A stretch of 35,971 nucleotides of DNA from a virus. Where the stretch lies: the IMG/VR virus record IMGVR_UViG_3300030118_003663, positions 1 to 35,971 of that record, one strand, 5' to 3'. The notes under the pieces were generated by a model. It worked only from the letters and a program-made list of their open reading frames with translations. It was not told the DNA's origin and searched no databases. A program made the position numbers and the translations under genes. Below are positions 3,021 through 34,495 of this stretch, piece after piece (positions within the stretch are counted from its first letter, which is position 1; every line of letters begins with the position of its first letter).

Positions 3021-3141
3021 GATATTTCTTCCAATTCTTTCTTCTGTTTTTGTTTTTAGGTCTTGATTGTCTTGACAGACCTATTGATGTTCTCTTTGGT
3101 TTTGGTTGCTTTCGTAGAACAGTTTCAAGTTTCTTTGCCAT
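3004..3141 (-). CDS. Tiny basic protein, conserved in T4-like marine phages
   Basis: The gene encodes 45 residues, beginning MAKKLETVLRKQPKPKRTSI and ending KKYRGQGR. The protein is strongly positively charged, with runs of K and R and a final RGQGR. I recall very similar short basic proteins in T4-like cyanophages, without a known function. Nucleic-acid or ribosome binding would be natural for such a peptide but is inference. Its ATG shares one base with the TAA stop of the membrane protein gene upstream (TAATG), so it should be translationally coupled to that gene. Confidence 0.7.
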   Translation of the reverse strand: MAKKLETVLRKQPKPKRTSIGLSRQSRPKNKNRRKNWKKYRGQGR

Positions 3142-3815
3142 TAACACCTTTCTGACAATTTACATAGTAATACTTTAACACCTTCCCATGTAAAAGTCAA
3201 CTCATTTGATATTGTTTCAGTTATTGAAAAAATATTTATATCAAAGTGACCCAATGCAAACACACTCATTGCACTTACAAGTCCTATCAGAAATGATGTA
3301 TAACTTAATTTAAGATACTTAAATTTATTGGTTGCCAAAACTCTACCCAAACCATATATGTTGCCAACTACGGCATCATACGTCCTTGAGTCTTTTTCAA
3401 GTCTCTGTGCATACTCACTCTTAAACTCATCAAGTGGTATGTGTGCAAAATGTCCAAAAAATAAAGGATTATAAAAAGGGGATTTCCTGTCAATGTCTCC
3501 ATCATGTGTCTTAGGATACCCTGTCTTTGGTAAAATAACAATGATTGCAAATATCAATGCTATCATAGAAAAGACACCAAGAAAAGTCAATGGCCATTTC
3601 AAAATCTCACTGTCCATGTTTGACAATGTGACAGAAAATACGATAGAGGAAACTGTAATCATGATATTTGCCTTTGTGTCAGCCATCAAAGTCAAATTCA
3701 TGATGTTGGTCTGATTTAGTCTAAGGATGTTATCAATTGCAGTTGATGAAGGAACGTCATCAAAGTGATTTTCTTTAGTTGTAAAATGTTCTTCGTTCCA
3801 AGATTCTTCTGACAT
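3141..3815 (-). CDS. PycTM-like (Pycsar effector type) membrane protein
   Basis: The 224-residue protein has an amphipathic helix with NIMNLTLMADTKANIMITV (A45-D46-x-K48-A-N50) running into membrane segment 1 (about 51-66). Segment 2 follows at about 74-95. A soluble part contains YNPLFFGHFA and DAVVGNIYGLGRVLATNKFKYL, and segment 3 is at about 172-190. The L-x-AD-x-KAN signature, the N-P-L-F-F-G motif and the IY-x-LG-x-VL-x-x-K segment before the last helix match my knowledge of the PycTM/DUF5706 family, the transmembrane effectors of Pycsar anti-phage defence. In defence systems these proteins respond to cyclic UMP or CMP and damage the membrane. No cyclase gene is next to this one, so the phage copy may be a decoy, an exclusion factor or a lysis aid. 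Its neighbours are periplasmic and membrane proteins. Confidence 0.6.
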   Translation of the reverse strand: MSEESWNEEHFTTKENHFDDVPSSTAIDNILRLNQTNIMNLTLMADTKANIMITVSSIVFSVTLSNMDSEILKWPLTFLGVFSMIALIFAIIVILPKTGYPKTHDGDIDRKSPFYNPLFFGHFAHIPLDEFKSEYAQRLEKDSRTYDAVVGNIYGLGRVLATNKFKYLKLSYTSFLIGLVSAMSVFALGHFDINIFSITETISNELTFTWEGVKVLLCKLSERC

Positions 3816-3818
3816 TCC

Positions 3819-5231
3819 TTACCTCAACGGCGGTGCATATAATAAACCTCCCTCCGTGTACAATTTATTATATCCTCTCTTTAAGTTGAGAGGTGTTTCT
3901 GTTCCAAGATATTTTTCGTAAATTTCTTCGTAATTACCTATCTGTTTAACAATTTGATATGCCCAGTCAGCATTCAATCCTAATTTTGCACCAAGATGTG
4001 GAAACTTATCGCCATCTCTCTCACCCATGAATCTCTGTATCTTTGGGTCTTTATTTTCTTTAAACGTGTCAATATTTTGAGATGTAATACCTAATTCTTC
4101 TGCAATAAAAAATACATATACCGACCAACGTGTTATATCAGTCCACAACTGATCACCATATCTTACGGCAGGTCCAAGAGGTTCTTTTGAAATCACCTCT
4201 GGTAGAATCATGTGTTTATCTGGTTCTGGATACTTTGTTCTATCTCCTGCTAATGCTGACCTATCAATACCATACATATCACAATTACCATCCAAATATA
4301 ACTCAACTATATCTTCGTCTGGATAGACACCAACAGGGGTATACTCCATTCCCCATAATTCAAAGAAATCTTTGATGTTTTGTTCTGCAGTTGTATCAAT
4401 ACTATAACAAACTGTGGCTCTGGAAAGGTCTTTGGCACTTTTTGCGCCAAGAGTCCTTCTTACCATAAAACCTTGACCATCATAAAATGTTGTTGGTAAA
4501 AATTCTATGCCATGAATAACATCTCTTGTATATGTCCATGTGGTTGTTGCAGACAATACATCAATAGAACCATCTTTTAATCTTTCAAATCTGGTTCTAC
4601 CATTAATGGTCTTAAATTTTATTTTATCTTTGTCTCCAAATAATGCAATGGCAAATGATTTACAGATGTCTGCATCAAACCCTTCCCAAATGTGATACAT
4701 ATCACCTTCAGGTGAAGTTATTCTTTGGCCTGTTCTTTCACTAAATCCCCATTGATTGTCATACACACCACAAATTACATATCCTCGTTCTTTTATCTTA
4801 TTTACAGTAGAACCATAAATTGGATTGTATTCATCACCACCAGAATATTCATCTTCAGATTCTTCTTGCATCTGAATATGTTGACTCTCTACTTCTTTGA
4901 GTCTTATAACTTCTGCTTGTAATGCATCATATTCTTTTTTAGGTACTACCTCAATATCTGGTCCAACGATACCAGAGAATATTGCTTCTCTCTGTTGTGC
5001 CAGTTCATCAATTTCTGCTTGTAAAGACAATCTATTACCTATATCAGTCTTAGGATCATCTCTCCTTTCAACCAACATATTGATTTCATCTTGTAATGTA
5101 CGAATACTTGCTTCACGAACCTCATCAATGACCTTCAAATTTCCATTACTATCTGAATATACTTTCTGTCCAAGTGATTCCGTAACTAAAAATGATGAAA
5201 CAAAAACTAATATTACGATTAGATTTTTCAT
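3819..5231 (-). CDS. Periplasmic amino-acid-binding protein (AapJ-type, SBP family 3) with coiled-coil N-terminal region
   Basis: The protein is 470 residues long. Residues 1-21 form a Sec signal peptide (MKNLIVILVFVSSFLV, then small residues). Residues about 35-125 are rich in E, Q, R and L heptad-like repeats and probably form a coiled coil. From about residue 140 the sequence follows family 3 solute-binding proteins of the AapJ general L-amino-acid type: GYVICGVYDN, WEGFDADICKSFAIALFGD, RFERLKDGSIDVLSATTTWT, FYDGQGFMVRR. Such proteins deliver amino acids to an ABC importer in the host inner membrane, but no permease or ATPase gene is present here. The extra coiled coil is not usual for AapJ. 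Its ATG overlaps the stop of the cytochrome gene (ATGA). Helping host amino-acid uptake, or serving as an envelope decoy, are both possible. Confidence 0.8.
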   Translation of the reverse strand: MKNLIVILVFVSSFLVTESLGQKVYSDSNGNLKVIDEVREASIRTLQDEINMLVERRDDPKTDIGNRLSLQAEIDELAQQREAIFSGIVGPDIEVVPKKEYDALQAEVIRLKEVESQHIQMQEESEDEYSGGDEYNPIYGSTVNKIKERGYVICGVYDNQWGFSERTGQRITSPEGDMYHIWEGFDADICKSFAIALFGDKDKIKFKTINGRTRFERLKDGSIDVLSATTTWTYTRDVIHGIEFLPTTFYDGQGFMVRRTLGAKSAKDLSRATVCYSIDTTAEQNIKDFFELWGMEYTPVGVYPDEDIVELYLDGNCDMYGIDRSALAGDRTKYPEPDKHMILPEVISKEPLGPAVRYGDQLWTDITRWSVYVFFIAEELGITSQNIDTFKENKDPKIQRFMGERDGDKFPHLGAKLGLNADWAYQIVKQIGNYEEIYEKYLGTETPLNLKRGYNKLYTEGGLLYAPPLR

Positions 5232-5695
5232 TTTAATGTACGATAAATTTCCATTAATTCAGCTTCAGGCATTTCCTGTGCCATTGTGAAATATCTTTGG
5301 TGACCGACCTTCATAAATCCCTTGAGGTCTGCAAAACTAGGATACTTTGCATGTAATCCAGAAATAAGATAATCGGGATCTAAATGACATTCTGCACAAG
5401 CATTACCCTTTGCAAATACTCTTGTACCAAGTTGATACCTCTCACTCTGTACCAATACAGAATTTAAGTCTTTCTCAACCCACCTTATCTTTTCATCCAT
5501 CTCTGGTATTACCATAAAAATCATGTAGGCCAAAAGACCCACTATGACAAAAATAAATGTCTTAACACTTTTGATTGTGGTAAGAGTCTCTTCTTCTATT
5601 TGTTTGACAGGTTCAAATCCAATATGTTCCTCACCATTTGTTGTTACAGTAGCCTTTATTGACCCTTCCTGAGTTGGCTTCTTTTGTTGTGCCAT
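5228..5695 (-). CDS. Membrane-anchored c-type cytochrome
   Basis: The 155-residue protein has about 44 hydrophilic residues, then one membrane helix (about 46-63, FIFVIVGLLAYMIFMVI), and then a domain that would lie in the periplasm. That domain carries one haem c attachment motif, C100-A-E-C103-H104. Near the C-terminus, YFTMAQEMPEAELMEIYRTL resembles the last helix of class I cytochromes c, and M138 or M142 could be the distal haem ligand. Maturation would depend on the host Ccm machinery. The gene is followed by the solute-binding protein with an ATGA overlap. A cytochrome gene in a phage is unusual. Altering host respiratory electron flow during infection is the natural guess, but nothing in the sequence shows the partner. 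Confidence 0.75.
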   Translation of the reverse strand: MAQQKKPTQEGSIKATVTTNGEEHIGFEPVKQIEEETLTTIKSVKTFIFVIVGLLAYMIFMVIPEMDEKIRWVEKDLNSVLVQSERYQLGTRVFAKGNACAECHLDPDYLISGLHAKYPSFADLKGFMKVGHQRYFTMAQEMPEAELMEIYRTLK

Positions 5696-5703
5696 TGTAA
5701 CTC

Positions 5704-6051
5704 CTATTTCGCCTTAGATGCTGTTTTCAGTCTTGATTGTAATTGTTGTGCAAACATTTTGAGTATGATCGGAATACTCACGTTTGAAGTAAGTCCAAAC
5801 AAAAATCCTACTGGATATTTAAATGATGCATATGGTTGCACTTGTTGTACGTTATCAAATACAAGAACGATTAAAATATATCCTGTTACTGACATTCCCA
5901 TATTGATAAACAAATCAAGACATATCAACCACCAGTTGCCTTGATACTTGTCTTTATTATCATGCCTGTAATTAAATAAAAATACAAAGAATGATGAAAA
6001 TAATATTATAGAAAACATAATTAAGTTATCTACACTGAACATTTCTGTCAT
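5704..6051 (-). CDS. Small membrane protein with three predicted helices
   Basis: The protein has 115 residues and hydrophobic segments at about 9-27, 41-66 and 81-100. A short basic loop (NYRHDNKDK) lies between the first two, and the tail QLQSRLKTASKAK is basic. The positive charges suggest that the loop and tail lie in the cytoplasm. I do not recognise the family. The layout could suit a holin or a partner of the neighbouring membrane-bound cytochrome. It overlaps the nucleotidase gene upstream by ATGA and ends 8 nt before the cytochrome gene. Confidence 0.7.
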   Translation of the reverse strand: MTEMFSVDNLIMFSIILFSSFFVFLFNYRHDNKDKYQGNWWLICLDLFINMGMSVTGYILIVLVFDNVQQVQPYASFKYPVGFLFGLTSNVSIPIILKMFAQQLQSRLKTASKAK

Positions 6052-7318: not shown

Positions 7319-8680
7319 TTAACTCCTTCCATATCGGAGATAAAGCATTGGACCACCTTCTCCGTTCTGTAAAATTATTGGACGCTTTGGAAATTTAAGA
7401 CCATACTCACGAATTGCTTTACCAACTCGTTTCTTACCTACATATTTTTCGTATCTATGATATTTTGCTTTTCCAAGTCTACATGCATGATATGTATCAG
7501 AATCTACAATGAATACATCTTTTCCTGCAAATCTTGACATCTTCACTGATTCACCCACTATCATTTGTTTTCTGGCCTTTTTGGCTTTCTTCTCATCATC
7601 TTTTTTCTTTTTTAGTGTCAAACCAATGTCTCTACCAGCAACACCTGCTGTACTTGTAGTTGGTGCATCTTCTTCTACTCCCTCACCTTTTGCTCTCTTC
7701 ATTTGAGCAGCAGTAGGTGCACCTTTCTCACCTTTCTTTCTCATTCTCTCACCAGAACCTTGTTTGATTCTTTGTCTTTTCTTATGTATGTTTGCCCATA
7801 AACTCTCATCTGTCACACCATCTACAAAGTCAACTTTACGGACACCGACTTCTTCTTTCTTCATTGCCATCTTGGTGGCTGTGGCATACATCACACTATC
7901 TGCATCATCACCATATCTATCTTTGAAATCTTTTTTCTTCTTTTTAAGTGATAGAACAATCTTTTCTCTTTTGTCCATCTCTGCATCAGTCATCTTTCTC
8001 TCTTCTAAAGACTGAATCAGATTCATCATCACTTCTTCAACTTGTGTGTCCAGATAGTCTGCCATACCATCCAGCTTGTCCACTGCAATGGCCACTTTAT
8101 TTGTCCACCATGTAGGAAGACTGCCATCATCTGGTAATTTACTAAGTTCAGTATTCATTTTCTGTAAAGCATCCATTGCAATCTTGACTTGATTTTTGGC
8201 GGATGCCACATCTGTGTGACCATCTTCTGTTAGATACTCACCAAATTTTAGTCTACTCATCTGTTCTACCTCTTCTCTAAGGATTTTGGCAGACTCAACC
8301 CAATCTTCATTCTCAAGAAACTCATTCAGTTTTCTTGTGGCATAGTTTTCATCAGTCCAGACTCTTGGGTTGTTCTGTTCTTTCAAAAGGAACAATGCAG
8401 CTGCATAGTTGAGTAAGATTGACTTACCCACTATTGGCACTTTCTCAATAAGTCTACGAATCTTGAAGACCATACGATGTAACATCGTGTAAGATGCTTT
8501 CTCATCGGTAGTCTCAAGTTCACTACTCTTCCTGAGAGGTTTTCCTTTTGCGTCTATGATTTTATATTTATAGGCATCTGTCTTCTTGTAGTCCATTGTT
8601 AGAAGACGAAGAAACCGAAAAACAAAGTAAAGGTCTGCACCTCTAGAAGCTTGTTTTATTACTGTATTAAGACTTGGCAT
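7319..8680 (-). CDS. Large conserved T4-like marine phage protein, probable virion component
   Basis: The protein is 453 residues from the ATG at 8680, which has a GGGAG ribosome site 10 nt upstream. An in-frame TTG nine bases earlier is less likely. The N-terminal 100 residues (SLNTVIKQASRGADLYFVFR, then YTMLHRMVFKIRRLIEKVP and KSILLNYAAALFL) recur, as I remember them, in T4-like marine phages. A helical middle contains FGEYLTEDGHTDVASAKNQV, a lysine-rich linker follows, and a compact end domain holds RFAGKDVFIVDSDTYHACR and GGPMLYLRYGRS. The FGEYLTED segment carries an L-x-E site. I infer a structural or internal role from neighbours and size; no enzymatic motif is visible. Confidence 0.65.
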   Translation of the reverse strand: MPSLNTVIKQASRGADLYFVFRFLRLLTMDYKKTDAYKYKIIDAKGKPLRKSSELETTDEKASYTMLHRMVFKIRRLIEKVPIVGKSILLNYAAALFLLKEQNNPRVWTDENYATRKLNEFLENEDWVESAKILREEVEQMSRLKFGEYLTEDGHTDVASAKNQVKIAMDALQKMNTELSKLPDDGSLPTWWTNKVAIAVDKLDGMADYLDTQVEEVMMNLIQSLEERKMTDAEMDKREKIVLSLKKKKKDFKDRYGDDADSVMYATATKMAMKKEEVGVRKVDFVDGVTDESLWANIHKKRQRIKQGSGERMRKKGEKGAPTAAQMKRAKGEGVEEDAPTTSTAGVAGRDIGLTLKKKKDDEKKAKKARKQMIVGESVKMSRFAGKDVFIVDSDTYHACRLGKAKYHRYEKYVGKKRVGKAIREYGLKFPKRPIILQNGEGGPMLYLRYGRS

Positions 8681-22399: not shown

Positions 22400-22738
22400 T
22401 TAAACGGCCGTAGGTTCAGGCGGATCGTTGTCTCTACTTACTTTTTCTGCAGTTTGAATGAATACATCTGGGGAGAGATCATGCCAACCTATAGTAACAC
22501 CTTCAACCATTTGTTCACCAAATATATTGCCGAACTGGTCTTCCATGATATAGACAGGATCTTTTTGTGTGTGGAATTTATCTGTGAGTAAGATACAATG
22601 AACCATCACACCTAACTCTGGATAGATGTAATACTTGCCTGGTTCAAAGGTCAAGGCGGGAGGAAACTCTTTCTTCTTTTCCTGTTTCTTTTTACGAAAG
22701 TCAGCAAGACTGACTACGTTCTCATTCTGTCGGCTCAC
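22400..22738 (-). CDS. Conserved marine T4-like phage protein, unknown
   Basis: The 112-residue protein has a charged N-terminal helix (VVSLADFRKKKQEKKKEFPP). A beta-rich part follows with LTFEPGKYYIYPELGVMVHC and DPVYIMEDQFGNIFGEQMV. I recall this as a common companion of clpS in T4-like marine phages, without a known function. It overlaps clpS by 17 nt, and the late promoter for the next gene lies right after its stop, so it should end the uvsX-gp41 operon. Confidence 0.65.
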   Translation of the reverse strand: MSRQNENVVSLADFRKKKQEKKKEFPPALTFEPGKYYIYPELGVMVHCILLTDKFHTQKDPVYIMEDQFGNIFGEQMVEGVTIGWHDLSPDVFIQTAEKVSRDNDPPEPTAV

Positions 22739-23048
22739 CTGTTATCTTTAGTGGATAGTCGTTTTCTTTTGCAAGTTCCATGACCTCATACACTTTTTGT
22801 TCTGCAATCTGGTAGTCATAGATACCTGCAACTGCAGCCCCTAACTTGTGTACTTCAAACATGATTGAATCTGCCTCTGCCTGTGATTTGTTGAAATATG
22901 CCACCAAAGTCCAAGAAACAAACTCCATCGGTGTAAAGTCATCATTATGATAGATAACCTTAAACTTTCTTGGTGGTTTTGGTGGTTGTTTTTTCTTTTT
23001 GGGTGGCCTGTCTATGACATCTATGCCACCCTTTTTGTCTGTGCTCAT
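22722..23048 (-). CDS. clpS: ClpS-like adaptor of the Clp protease
   Basis: The 108-residue protein has a disordered basic start (RPPKKKKQPPKPPRK) and then the ClpS core: YHNDDFTPMEFVSWTLVAYF, the MFEVHKLGAAVAGIYDYQIA helix-strand, and EQKVYEVMELAKENDYPL. In bacteria ClpS binds ClpA and delivers N-degron substrates to ClpAP. A phage copy could redirect host proteolysis during infection; clpS genes are known in marine cyanophages. The core residues look intact. It overlaps the oxygenase gene by 4 nt. Confidence 0.9.
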   Translation of the reverse strand: MSTDKKGGIDVIDRPPKKKKQPPKPPRKFKVIYHNDDFTPMEFVSWTLVAYFNKSQAEADSIMFEVHKLGAAVAGIYDYQIAEQKVYEVMELAKENDYPLKITGEPTE

Positions 23049-30889: not shown

Positions 30890-31336
30890 TTAAGAACCAA
30901 TAGGAATCAGCCGTGGCTTCTTCTCTTCTGGTATCACTTTCTCAAGGTCAATATTTAACATACCATCCTTGAGGTCCGCACCCTTTACAATAATATCATC
31001 GGAAAGAGTGAAAGAACGAGAGAATGCCCGTTTGGCAATTCCCTTATGAACGAATGAATCACTTTTAGATTCACCTTCTTTGTCTTCGGTTGAACGGATA
31101 ACCAATTTACCATCGGTTACTTCAACCTCTATGTCATCTTTTGAAAACCCTGCAAGGGCTACTTCTATGACATACTGAACTTCGTTCAGTTTCCGAATGT
31201 TATATGGTGGATACCCCGAATCGCGAGTAGAATCCATATCAAAAAAACGATCAAAGAATGTATCAAACCCAACTGTGAGTCCCATCATTTTTTGAAAGTC
31301 TTGGGGTGTAAACGCGGAGTGTCGTGCTAGAACCAT
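30890..31336 (-). CDS. hsp20: Small heat-shock protein Hsp20 (alpha-crystallin family)
   Basis: The 148-residue protein has the IbpA-like layout: an N-terminal arm with FDTFFDRFF, then PPYNIRKLNEVQYVIEVALA starting the alpha-crystallin domain, DGKLVIRSTED, FTLSDDIIVKGADLKDGMLN (the conserved G-x-L motif), and a C-terminal KPRLIPIG with an I-x-I-type tail. These chaperones hold unfolding proteins, and hsp20 genes are common in T4-like marine phages. A full ribosome site (AAGGAGG) stands 5 nt before the ATG, so translation should be strong. It follows the structured RNA element and ends in a good terminator. Confidence 0.93.
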   Translation of the reverse strand: MVLARHSAFTPQDFQKMMGLTVGFDTFFDRFFDMDSTRDSGYPPYNIRKLNEVQYVIEVALAGFSKDDIEVEVTDGKLVIRSTEDKEGESKSDSFVHKGIAKRAFSRSFTLSDDIIVKGADLKDGMLNIDLEKVIPEEKKPRLIPIGS

Positions 31337-31707: not shown

Positions 31708-31929
31708 TTACTTCTTTGAATATATGCCCCAAAGTACCCAAACAGCAACTAATCCTACAAGGCCTTCTGCACCGAGTTGTTTTACCAGCCCAACTACTGA
31801 ACCAACAATATCAAGGCCTAAGAACGGAACAGCTGCTCCAAAGATAACTTGAAGCACTACTCCTAGTGCGATTACGGCTAAACCCAATTCCGTAACAGAA
31901 CGAATCCAACCTAAAACTTTATCTAGCAT
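31708..31929 (-). CDS. Small integral membrane protein
   Basis: The 73-residue protein begins MLDKVLGWIRSVTELGLAVI and is hydrophobic throughout, with segments at about 14-38 and 49-69 and a final YSKK. I recall very similar proteins in many T4-like marine phages, function unknown. A holin-like or membrane-scaffold role is possible given its size and helices. It follows the dUTPase gene with 11 nt between. Confidence 0.75.
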   Translation of the reverse strand: MLDKVLGWIRSVTELGLAVIALGVVLQVIFGAAVPFLGLDIVGSVVGLVKQLGAEGLVGLVAVWVLWGIYSKK

Positions 31930-33242: not shown

Positions 33243-33528
33243 CTTCAACCCATTTTAAAACCGTGGCACTATTCTTCTCCAAAGGTGGATACCAAATTGC
33301 CTTGGTTTTCGTAGTAATATTGGTTTGATCAATCTTTTCTGCAAATTCTCTTAGGTCTTCTTCATTACGAAATCTGACTCTAATCAAAGCATATTGACCT
33401 TTTTCTGGATTGTCAAATTCTGGCATATCATCCCATCCAAAGGGAGTTTGTGCCTCTTCATCACCTGCAAGAACAAATAGATTTGTTTCTGTTCCTTTTT
33501 CTGGAACCTTATTTAATACGTTACCCAT
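33229..33528 (-). CDS. Small protein between glycosyltransferase and gp62, unknown
   Basis: The 99-residue protein begins MGNVLNKVPEKGTETNLFVL and contains GWDDMPEFDNPEKGQYALIR, then VRFRNEEDLREFAEKIDQTN and KAIWYPPLEKNSATVL. The second half looks like a small alpha/beta domain (V-R-F-x-x-x-E-D-x-x-x-F). I have seen this pattern next to other phage glycosyltransferases of the TET-associated type, but know no function. It overlaps the glycosyltransferase gene by 8 nt and gp62 by 14 nt. Confidence 0.65.
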   Translation of the reverse strand: MGNVLNKVPEKGTETNLFVLAGDEEAQTPFGWDDMPEFDNPEKGQYALIRVRFRNEEDLREFAEKIDQTNITTKTKAIWYPPLEKNSATVLKWVEDESV

Positions 33529-34468
33529 ACTGGACTTCCTTTTCTAATTGTTTCGGGAACTCTTTTAAAACCAAACCATACTCATTGTTTCCCTTTGGTA
33601 TATTTAGCCCACTTTTTAGGATAGGTTTTTGTTTGTATCTATAGTAATCCACATAATGATGCCATCTGTCATATTTCCATGTAACTCTGGCAACATCTGG
33701 ATGTTGATTTGCAATAGACTCCGCAAATTTTCTTCTCTTATCAAATTTCTCACCACCTCTTGACTCTTTACCGCCTGGGTCATCCACTGCATAGACTTCT
33801 TGCGTGTTACCACCTTTCATAGTCATGGAAGCGGCCTTACCTATCAGAAAACAATTGAATAACATAGTACAAAGACCTGCCTTTAGAATCCTAATACTAA
33901 TATCAGTATCTTCATTATACATCCCACGCCATCTTATGTCAAGTGTGTTATCAAGTAGGATACATGAATAAATTCTTGTGTTCAAAACGTATGGTGGCCT
34001 TTTAGATATTGCAGGAATAATGAAATCATAGTTCATACCTGCCATGCCAACATTTGTATATCTGTCAACAAAGTTCTCCAAGATTGCAAATGGTGATCCA
34101 CTTTCAACTTGTAGTTTTCTATTCTGGTGTAGACGATAGAGTGGTGCCATGTTATCATCAAGAATCCAATGTCTCTTGTGACCTTCCGACTTTGAATGTT
34201 CATAGACAAAATTACGAACTGGTATAGATCCACCCAAAGTATCAGTAACTTCACATCTTACTGCATACAGCGGGTTCTCTCTAAAATCTTTGGGAAGTGC
34301 AATTATCTTCTCTTCTGGTACATTTTCAGCATATGCATCAAACTCCGAATCTTCAACAACCATCCGATATGGCACACCATACCTCTCAAGCATTTCTTGA
34401 GTGAGTCTAAGACCATTCTCGTAACGACCTTTTGAAATAATGTAAATAGGATATTTTGGTTTCATCAT
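33521..34468 (-). CDS. TET-associated-type glycosyltransferase
   Basis: The protein is 315 residues from the ATG at 34468, with AAAGGAG five bases upstream. It shows the pattern I know from the TET-associated glycosyltransferase family: YPIYIISKGR near the start, VPYRMVVEDSEFDAYAE, GGSIPVRNFVYEHS, HWILDDN (D104, D105) as metal/sugar site, YVLNTRIYSCILL, and YNEDTD (186-189), ending with YDRWHHYVDY. In phages such enzymes add sugars to hydroxymethylated pyrimidines in DNA, hiding it from restriction and CRISPR nucleases. No TET/JBP oxygenase lies next to it, so the acceptor base is unknown. It is inserted between gp44 and gp62, a place where expression is early. Confidence 0.7.
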   Translation of the reverse strand: MMKPKYPIYIISKGRYENGLRLTQEMLERYGVPYRMVVEDSEFDAYAENVPEEKIIALPKDFRENPLYAVRCEVTDTLGGSIPVRNFVYEHSKSEGHKRHWILDDNMAPLYRLHQNRKLQVESGSPFAILENFVDRYTNVGMAGMNYDFIIPAISKRPPYVLNTRIYSCILLDNTLDIRWRGMYNEDTDISIRILKAGLCTMLFNCFLIGKAASMTMKGGNTQEVYAVDDPGGKESRGGEKFDKRRKFAESIANQHPDVARVTWKYDRWHHYVDYYRYKQKPILKSGLNIPKGNNEYGLVLKEFPKQLEKEVQYG

Positions 34469-34495
34469 ATCAACTCCTTTCAATACTATTTAGCA

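Follow-up and report, generated by a model that had tools for sequence, protein, structure and literature searches.

We found that a phage gene encoding a membrane-anchored protein with a strictly conserved haem c attachment motif belongs to a set of three adjacent genes, designated c1, c0 and c2, in uncultured marine phages. The gene for the putative cytochrome, c0, was analysed in a stretch of 35,971 nucleotides, hereafter the window. As judged from gene order in related contigs, the three genes are shown to be inherited together as a nearly obligate cassette. With a probability of about 0.4, we read this cassette as a late periplasmic cargo module, in which an anchored mono-haem c protein would act beside an amino-acid scavenger for the Aap/Bzt importer of the host; we infer both the haem binding and the mechanism from sequence.

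The c0 gene is an open reading frame of 155 codons on the minus strand, with boundaries at exactly 5228 and 5695. Its product has a single transmembrane helix at about residues 45–65 (hydropathy peak at 46–64, mean 2.54), followed by a short helical stalk (approximately 66–83) and the CAECH sequence at residues 100–104, encoded at 5384–5398 on the minus strand. Only about 51 residues follow the motif, including a C-terminal helix (approximately 144–154) that is predicted in a low-confidence AlphaFold model. One membrane helix, an intact C-A-E-C-H motif and a C-terminal helix had been noticed in a sequence-only reading of the window, and all three are borne out. C100 and C103 are the only cysteines in the protein. 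The charges flanking the transmembrane helix are balanced and do not settle the topology; N-in/C-out is the usual arrangement of signal-anchor proteins. A CxxCH motif alone is weak evidence for a cytochrome because seven of them occur over the six frames of the window, one inside another open frame of 210 residues.

The evidence for c0 therefore lies in its relatives. The number of related loci in IMG/VR rose from 12 with the window protein as the query to 56 with a first alignment and 195 with a broader one, of which 80 were kept; the sequence-only reading had proposed a search in other phage genomes. C100, C103 and H104 are invariant in all 106 distinct c0 sequences that reach the motif, whereas position 102, between the two cysteines, is occupied by Ser, Thr, Glu, Gln, Gly or Asp. 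Four additional sequences have no motif, their reading frames ending ahead of CxxCH, and are taken to be truncated at contig ends. This invariance is no product of the search, since many loci were retrieved by way of the adjacent c1 gene or with patterns lacking CxxCH. Comparison of the window gene with two related loci gave a pN of 0.016 and a pS of 0.34 (L001) and a pN of 0.101 and a pS of 0.683 (L002). With pN far below pS, the c0 frame is protein-coding and its product is under purifying selection. Conservation across 106 sequences, together with the excess of synonymous over nonsynonymous change, rules out a chance occurrence of the motif. Cellular contamination is also ruled out, as the c0 relatives sit among phage neck, sheath and terminase genes. 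Three loci come from GTDB species genomes assembled from metagenomes and labelled 'Flavobacteriaceae', 'Flavobacteriales' and 'Saprospiraceae' (L063, L064 and L065). The same phage genes flank c0 there and the sole AapJ homologue is the phage copy, and we therefore read these Bacteroidota loci as probably mis-binned phage contigs and do not take the taxa for hosts. A search of the PHROGs library with c0 gave no meaningful match. Neither c0 nor c1 occurs in any of the 50,697 annotated phage records searched, so that no isolated phage among them has the cassette.

Linkage of the three genes is nearly complete. Wherever a contig leaves room, c1 lies directly upstream of c0 (111 of 111 loci), and c2 lies downstream of it in 89 of 92. 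A separate search that started from c1 found c0 after it in all 44 new loci with room. The loci were drawn from many metagenomes and are not all independent. The stop codon of c0 and the start of c2 overlap by 4 nucleotides in the window, as they do in 36 of the 49 loci measured, and some other loci have extra genes inserted between the two. The genomic surroundings of the cassette are of at least two kinds. In many contigs, it follows gp14-gp15-gp16-like genes and precedes gp17-gp18-like genes; in the window, it follows a run containing a deoxyribonucleotidase gene. In a 167-kb carrier record (G001), it lies between the small- and large-terminase open reading frames, which were assigned by comparison with Pelagibacter phage HTVC008M and phage Mosig. 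In HTVC008M, genes for a phytanoyl-CoA dioxygenase and a tryptophan halogenase occupy the gap between gp16 and gp17, which in Mosig has one small open reading frame. Because these phages carry other genes at this position, we regard the gap as a cargo slot.

The product of c2 (3819–5231, minus strand) belongs to the AapJ/BztA type of amino-acid-binding proteins (SBP_bac_3). It matches PF00497 with 35.9 bits against a cut-off of 26.4, and its last approximately 330 residues align with residues 8–328 of a Brucella periplasmic amino-acid-binding protein (PDB 4z9n; E = 9e-80). R236, T281 and D323, which we take to be the equivalents of the HisJ residues binding the α-carboxylate and α-amino groups, are conserved in at least 97% of 98 sequences. 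Thus, c2 shares the full domain and the ligand residues with AapJ/BztA proteins, but it is phage-encoded, begins with a signal-peptide-like N-terminus and an N-terminal extension of about 110 residues, overlaps c0, and has no identified ABC permease or ATPase gene near it in the window. Relatives at about 45% identity are found on alphaproteobacterial plasmids; the 50,697 phage records contain three matches, all remote. Methanol dehydrogenase operons also contain a cytochrome c gene followed by a gene for a substrate-binding protein (XoxG/XoxJ or MxaG/MxaJ). A pair of that kind is rejected here, as c2 is AapJ-like and no MoxJ model was matched.

The third gene, c1 (5704–6051, minus strand), encodes a small integral membrane protein of 115 residues with two or three transmembrane helices and a basic C-terminal tail. 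It matched neither a holin family nor any other assigned family in Pfam and PHROGs. Two candidate identities were discarded: a haem b protein, since c1 has no invariant histidine, and a remnant ABC permease, for which the PF00528 matches (5 of 22 members, best E = 0.024) are too weak.

The window belongs to a T4-like phage, with gp43, RecA/UvsX-type and clamp/clamp-loader-type genes. Its gp43 is about 50% identical to those of cyanomyoviruses over the full length, and the large terminase of a related contig is about 60% identical to those of cyanophages and of Methylophilales phage Melnitz. Other carriers show a gp14–gp18-type gene order, sharing the arrangement of neck, sheath-stabilising and terminase genes with the pelagimyophages HTVC008M and Mosig (Kyanoviridae), which differ in having no cassette. 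On this gene content, the carriers are uncultured marine T4-like, pelagimyophage-like phages. A permuted tmRNA was found in 4 of 18 carrier records (G001, G002, G013 and G020) and none was found in the window. In G001, its gene lies at L174:17473-17817 and encodes the tag ADNTDYFPAQVALAA, which looks alphaproteobacterial, in our judgement. At the DNA level, comparing the tmRNA with isolated phages was uninformative. tmRNA of the permuted type is known from Alphaproteobacteria, some Gammaproteobacteria and Cyanobacteria (PMC9004378). Over about 176 bp, DNA from the neck gene region of G001 is 78.5% identical to that of HTVC008M. Together with the plasmid relatives of c2, these features indicate that the host is probably alphaproteobacterial, perhaps of the SAR11 type, and the window phage may share it. 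G001 also contains a long run of open reading frames at about 45–97 kb (L172–L174) that appear, by eye, to be radical-SAM, sugar-nucleotide and glycosyltransferase-like genes.

A T4 late-promoter-like element, TATAAATA, lies at 8565–8572 on the minus strand, upstream of the run of co-directional genes to which the cassette belongs. The window has nine such sites against 1.9 expected, eight of them on the gene strand; the tested segment of G001 showed no enrichment. The position of the cassette among virion genes and these sites suggest that it is expressed late. Several other genes of the window, all on the minus strand, have recognizable products: a tRNA nucleotidyltransferase/poly(A) polymerase-like protein (1389–2603; PF01743 and PF12627), the N-end-rule protease adaptor ClpS (22722–23048; PF02617, E = 7e-28), an Hsp20 small heat-shock protein (30890–31336), and a TET-associated glycosyltransferase (33521–34483; PF20691, E = 9.6e-41), which hints at modified bases in the phage DNA.

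The next question is whether c0 is a cytochrome c. All 28 members that were scanned matched the SoxA/TsdA cytochrome c domain (PF21342), and this is the only domain family common to them. The matches are below threshold: the best E-value is 4.5e-5, and the window protein scores 23 bits over approximately 30 aligned residues against a curated cut-off of 27. The profile search proposed earlier thus returned a consistent cytochrome c family, though at a sub-threshold score, and the Pfam Cytochrome_C model did not match the window protein. The best sequence match in the PDB is the di-haem cytochrome c SoxA (1h31; E = 0.05–0.13). SoxA and TsdA resemble c0 in having an L..YP.. stretch after CxxCH, whereas c0 is putatively mono-haem and is membrane-anchored, and no Sox partners were seen. 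When the 1h31 alignment is extended, the distal Cys ligand of SoxA would fall on residue 138 of c0, a column that contains no Cys. This residue is Met in 68 of the 106 sequences, Ala in 17, Leu in 11, Asn in 7, and Val and Arg in one each; the distal Met by which class I cytochromes are recognized, and which the sequence-only reading had singled out for structure prediction, is therefore conserved in part of the family only. The His and Met residues that are conserved after CAECH are H132 (106 of 106) and M128 (105 of 106). Because only these two are kept throughout, the family-wide distal ligand would be one of them and not the classical Met. AlphaFold gave a pLDDT of 57 for the full-length protein and an all-helical domain with a pLDDT of 70 and a pTM of 0.50, modelled without haem, and a Foldseek search of these weak models against the PDB found no fold match. 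A covalent haem in c0 is likely, given its conserved motif and membrane anchor together with the domain matches. The earlier description of a phage-encoded, membrane-anchored protein with a c-type haem motif holds, given the T4-like phage genes in the window and the strictly conserved attachment residues. The label 'respiratory-type' is not supported, in view of the partly conserved Met138, the short chain beyond CAECH, the sub-threshold SoxA/TsdA score and the lack of a fold match in the PDB, and the three-gene cassette around the gene had been missed.

Two other views of c0 itself were weighed against these data. It could be an ordinary class I electron carrier working between the bc1 complex and an oxidase, like the membrane-anchored CycM. 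The anchor, CxxCH, the C-terminal helix, and a Met138 that the window protein has in common with 68 of 106 relatives would suit such a carrier, but Met138 is replaced by Ala, Leu, Asn, Val or Arg in 38 of 106 sequences, and the inspected examples offer no other Met close by, the domain is very short, and the window protein has no Cytochrome_C match; we consider this unlikely. That the site is not a haem site at all is, in our assessment, improbable. According to this alternative, C100, C103, H104 and H132 would bind zinc or copper, or the CxxC would be a thiol-redox pair on an anchored periplasmic protein. The invariant His132 provides a fourth ligand-type residue, and no cytochrome c was matched by the predicted fold. 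However, that fold was modelled without haem, and the strict C-x-x-C-H order with a variable residue between the cysteines, the N-terminal anchor, and the SoxA/TsdA matches in 28 of 28 members are better suited to haem c.

In the cargo-module reading, c0 would be inserted N-in/C-out and would receive one haem c from the Ccm system of the host. The short stalk would present this haem on the periplasmic side of the inner membrane; His104 would be its proximal ligand and His132 (or Met128) its distal one. The c2 protein would be secreted beside c0. No permease gene was observed alongside c2, which would therefore deliver amino acids to the Aap/Bzt importer of the host itself, and c1 may anchor or organise c0 and c2. 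The module would be produced late, from the virion-gene region, so that the infected cell is kept in amino acids and its periplasmic electron flow or redox state is maintained until lysis. A second binding protein, of the Bmp family (PF02608), is encoded in 4 of 14 carrier records (G001, at L184, G001:C1:21765-22628; G002; G011; and G013), which fits the theme of uptake. This account is weakest where it ties the cytochrome to uptake, and it leaves the near-obligate pairing unexplained. A bis-His pair would mean a low potential, unsuited to the step from bc1 to the oxidase, and this also counts against it.

Two further explanations concern the cassette as a whole. The three proteins might form one inner-membrane complex that monitors respiration and nutrient status in the host and controls how, or when, infection proceeds. 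The cassette might likewise be a sensor or timer, with c0 as a haem sensor of redox state, O2 or NO and c2 as an amino-acid sensor, both reporting to c1 as a holin-like pore or holin regulator, so that lysis would be tied to the energy and nutrient state of the host. Such a sensor or timer would account for the near-obligate linkage of three envelope proteins, for the variable position 138, as if some members had an open distal site, for the size, helices and basic tail of c1, and for the late-gene setting. Nevertheless, c1 matches no holin family, the cassette has no signalling domain, and the window has a peptidase M15 endolysin candidate elsewhere and another potential holin, a small membrane protein of 73 residues (31708–31929). 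We regard both the complex and its role as a lysis timer as possible but doubtful. We give little credence to a role in exclusion, whereby the cassette would alter the periplasm against superinfection or host defence. A gene for PycTM, a Pycsar-effector-like protein with two transmembrane helices (3141–3815 in the window, minus strand; Pfam E = 2.9e-20, PADLOC E = 1e-14), adjoins many cassettes, and c1 has a marginal match to AbiC (E = 0.004, 14.7 bits). However, PycTM is a frequent but non-obligate downstream neighbour, the AbiC match does not rise above the noise expected of a short hydrophobic protein, and c2 retains transport-type ligand residues. No cyclase was noticed near PycTM in the window phage.

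The phage electron-transfer genes known so far mainly concern photosynthesis. The open-access papers searched for phage cytochrome c yielded no such three-gene cassette, the nearest cases found being phage soxD and viral cbb3 oxidase reads (PMC3474794). Phage-encoded soxD was proposed as cargo from two metagenome datasets, with one or both haem motifs missing (Kieft et al. 2021; PMC8190135). Like c0, it is a gene of cytochrome c type read as phage cargo; in contrast, the CxxCH of c0 is invariant in 106 sequences and its gene lies within a fixed cassette. A strictly conserved haem c motif thus occurs in a near-obligate cassette across nearly 200 uncultured marine phage contigs, and the cassette is small enough for direct expression in Escherichia coli. 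From the predicted functions of its products, the phages probably alter the host periplasm through this cassette, in a manner that none of the papers searched describes. If this is true, phages of marine heterotrophs would place their own haem protein and an amino-acid scavenger in the host envelope.
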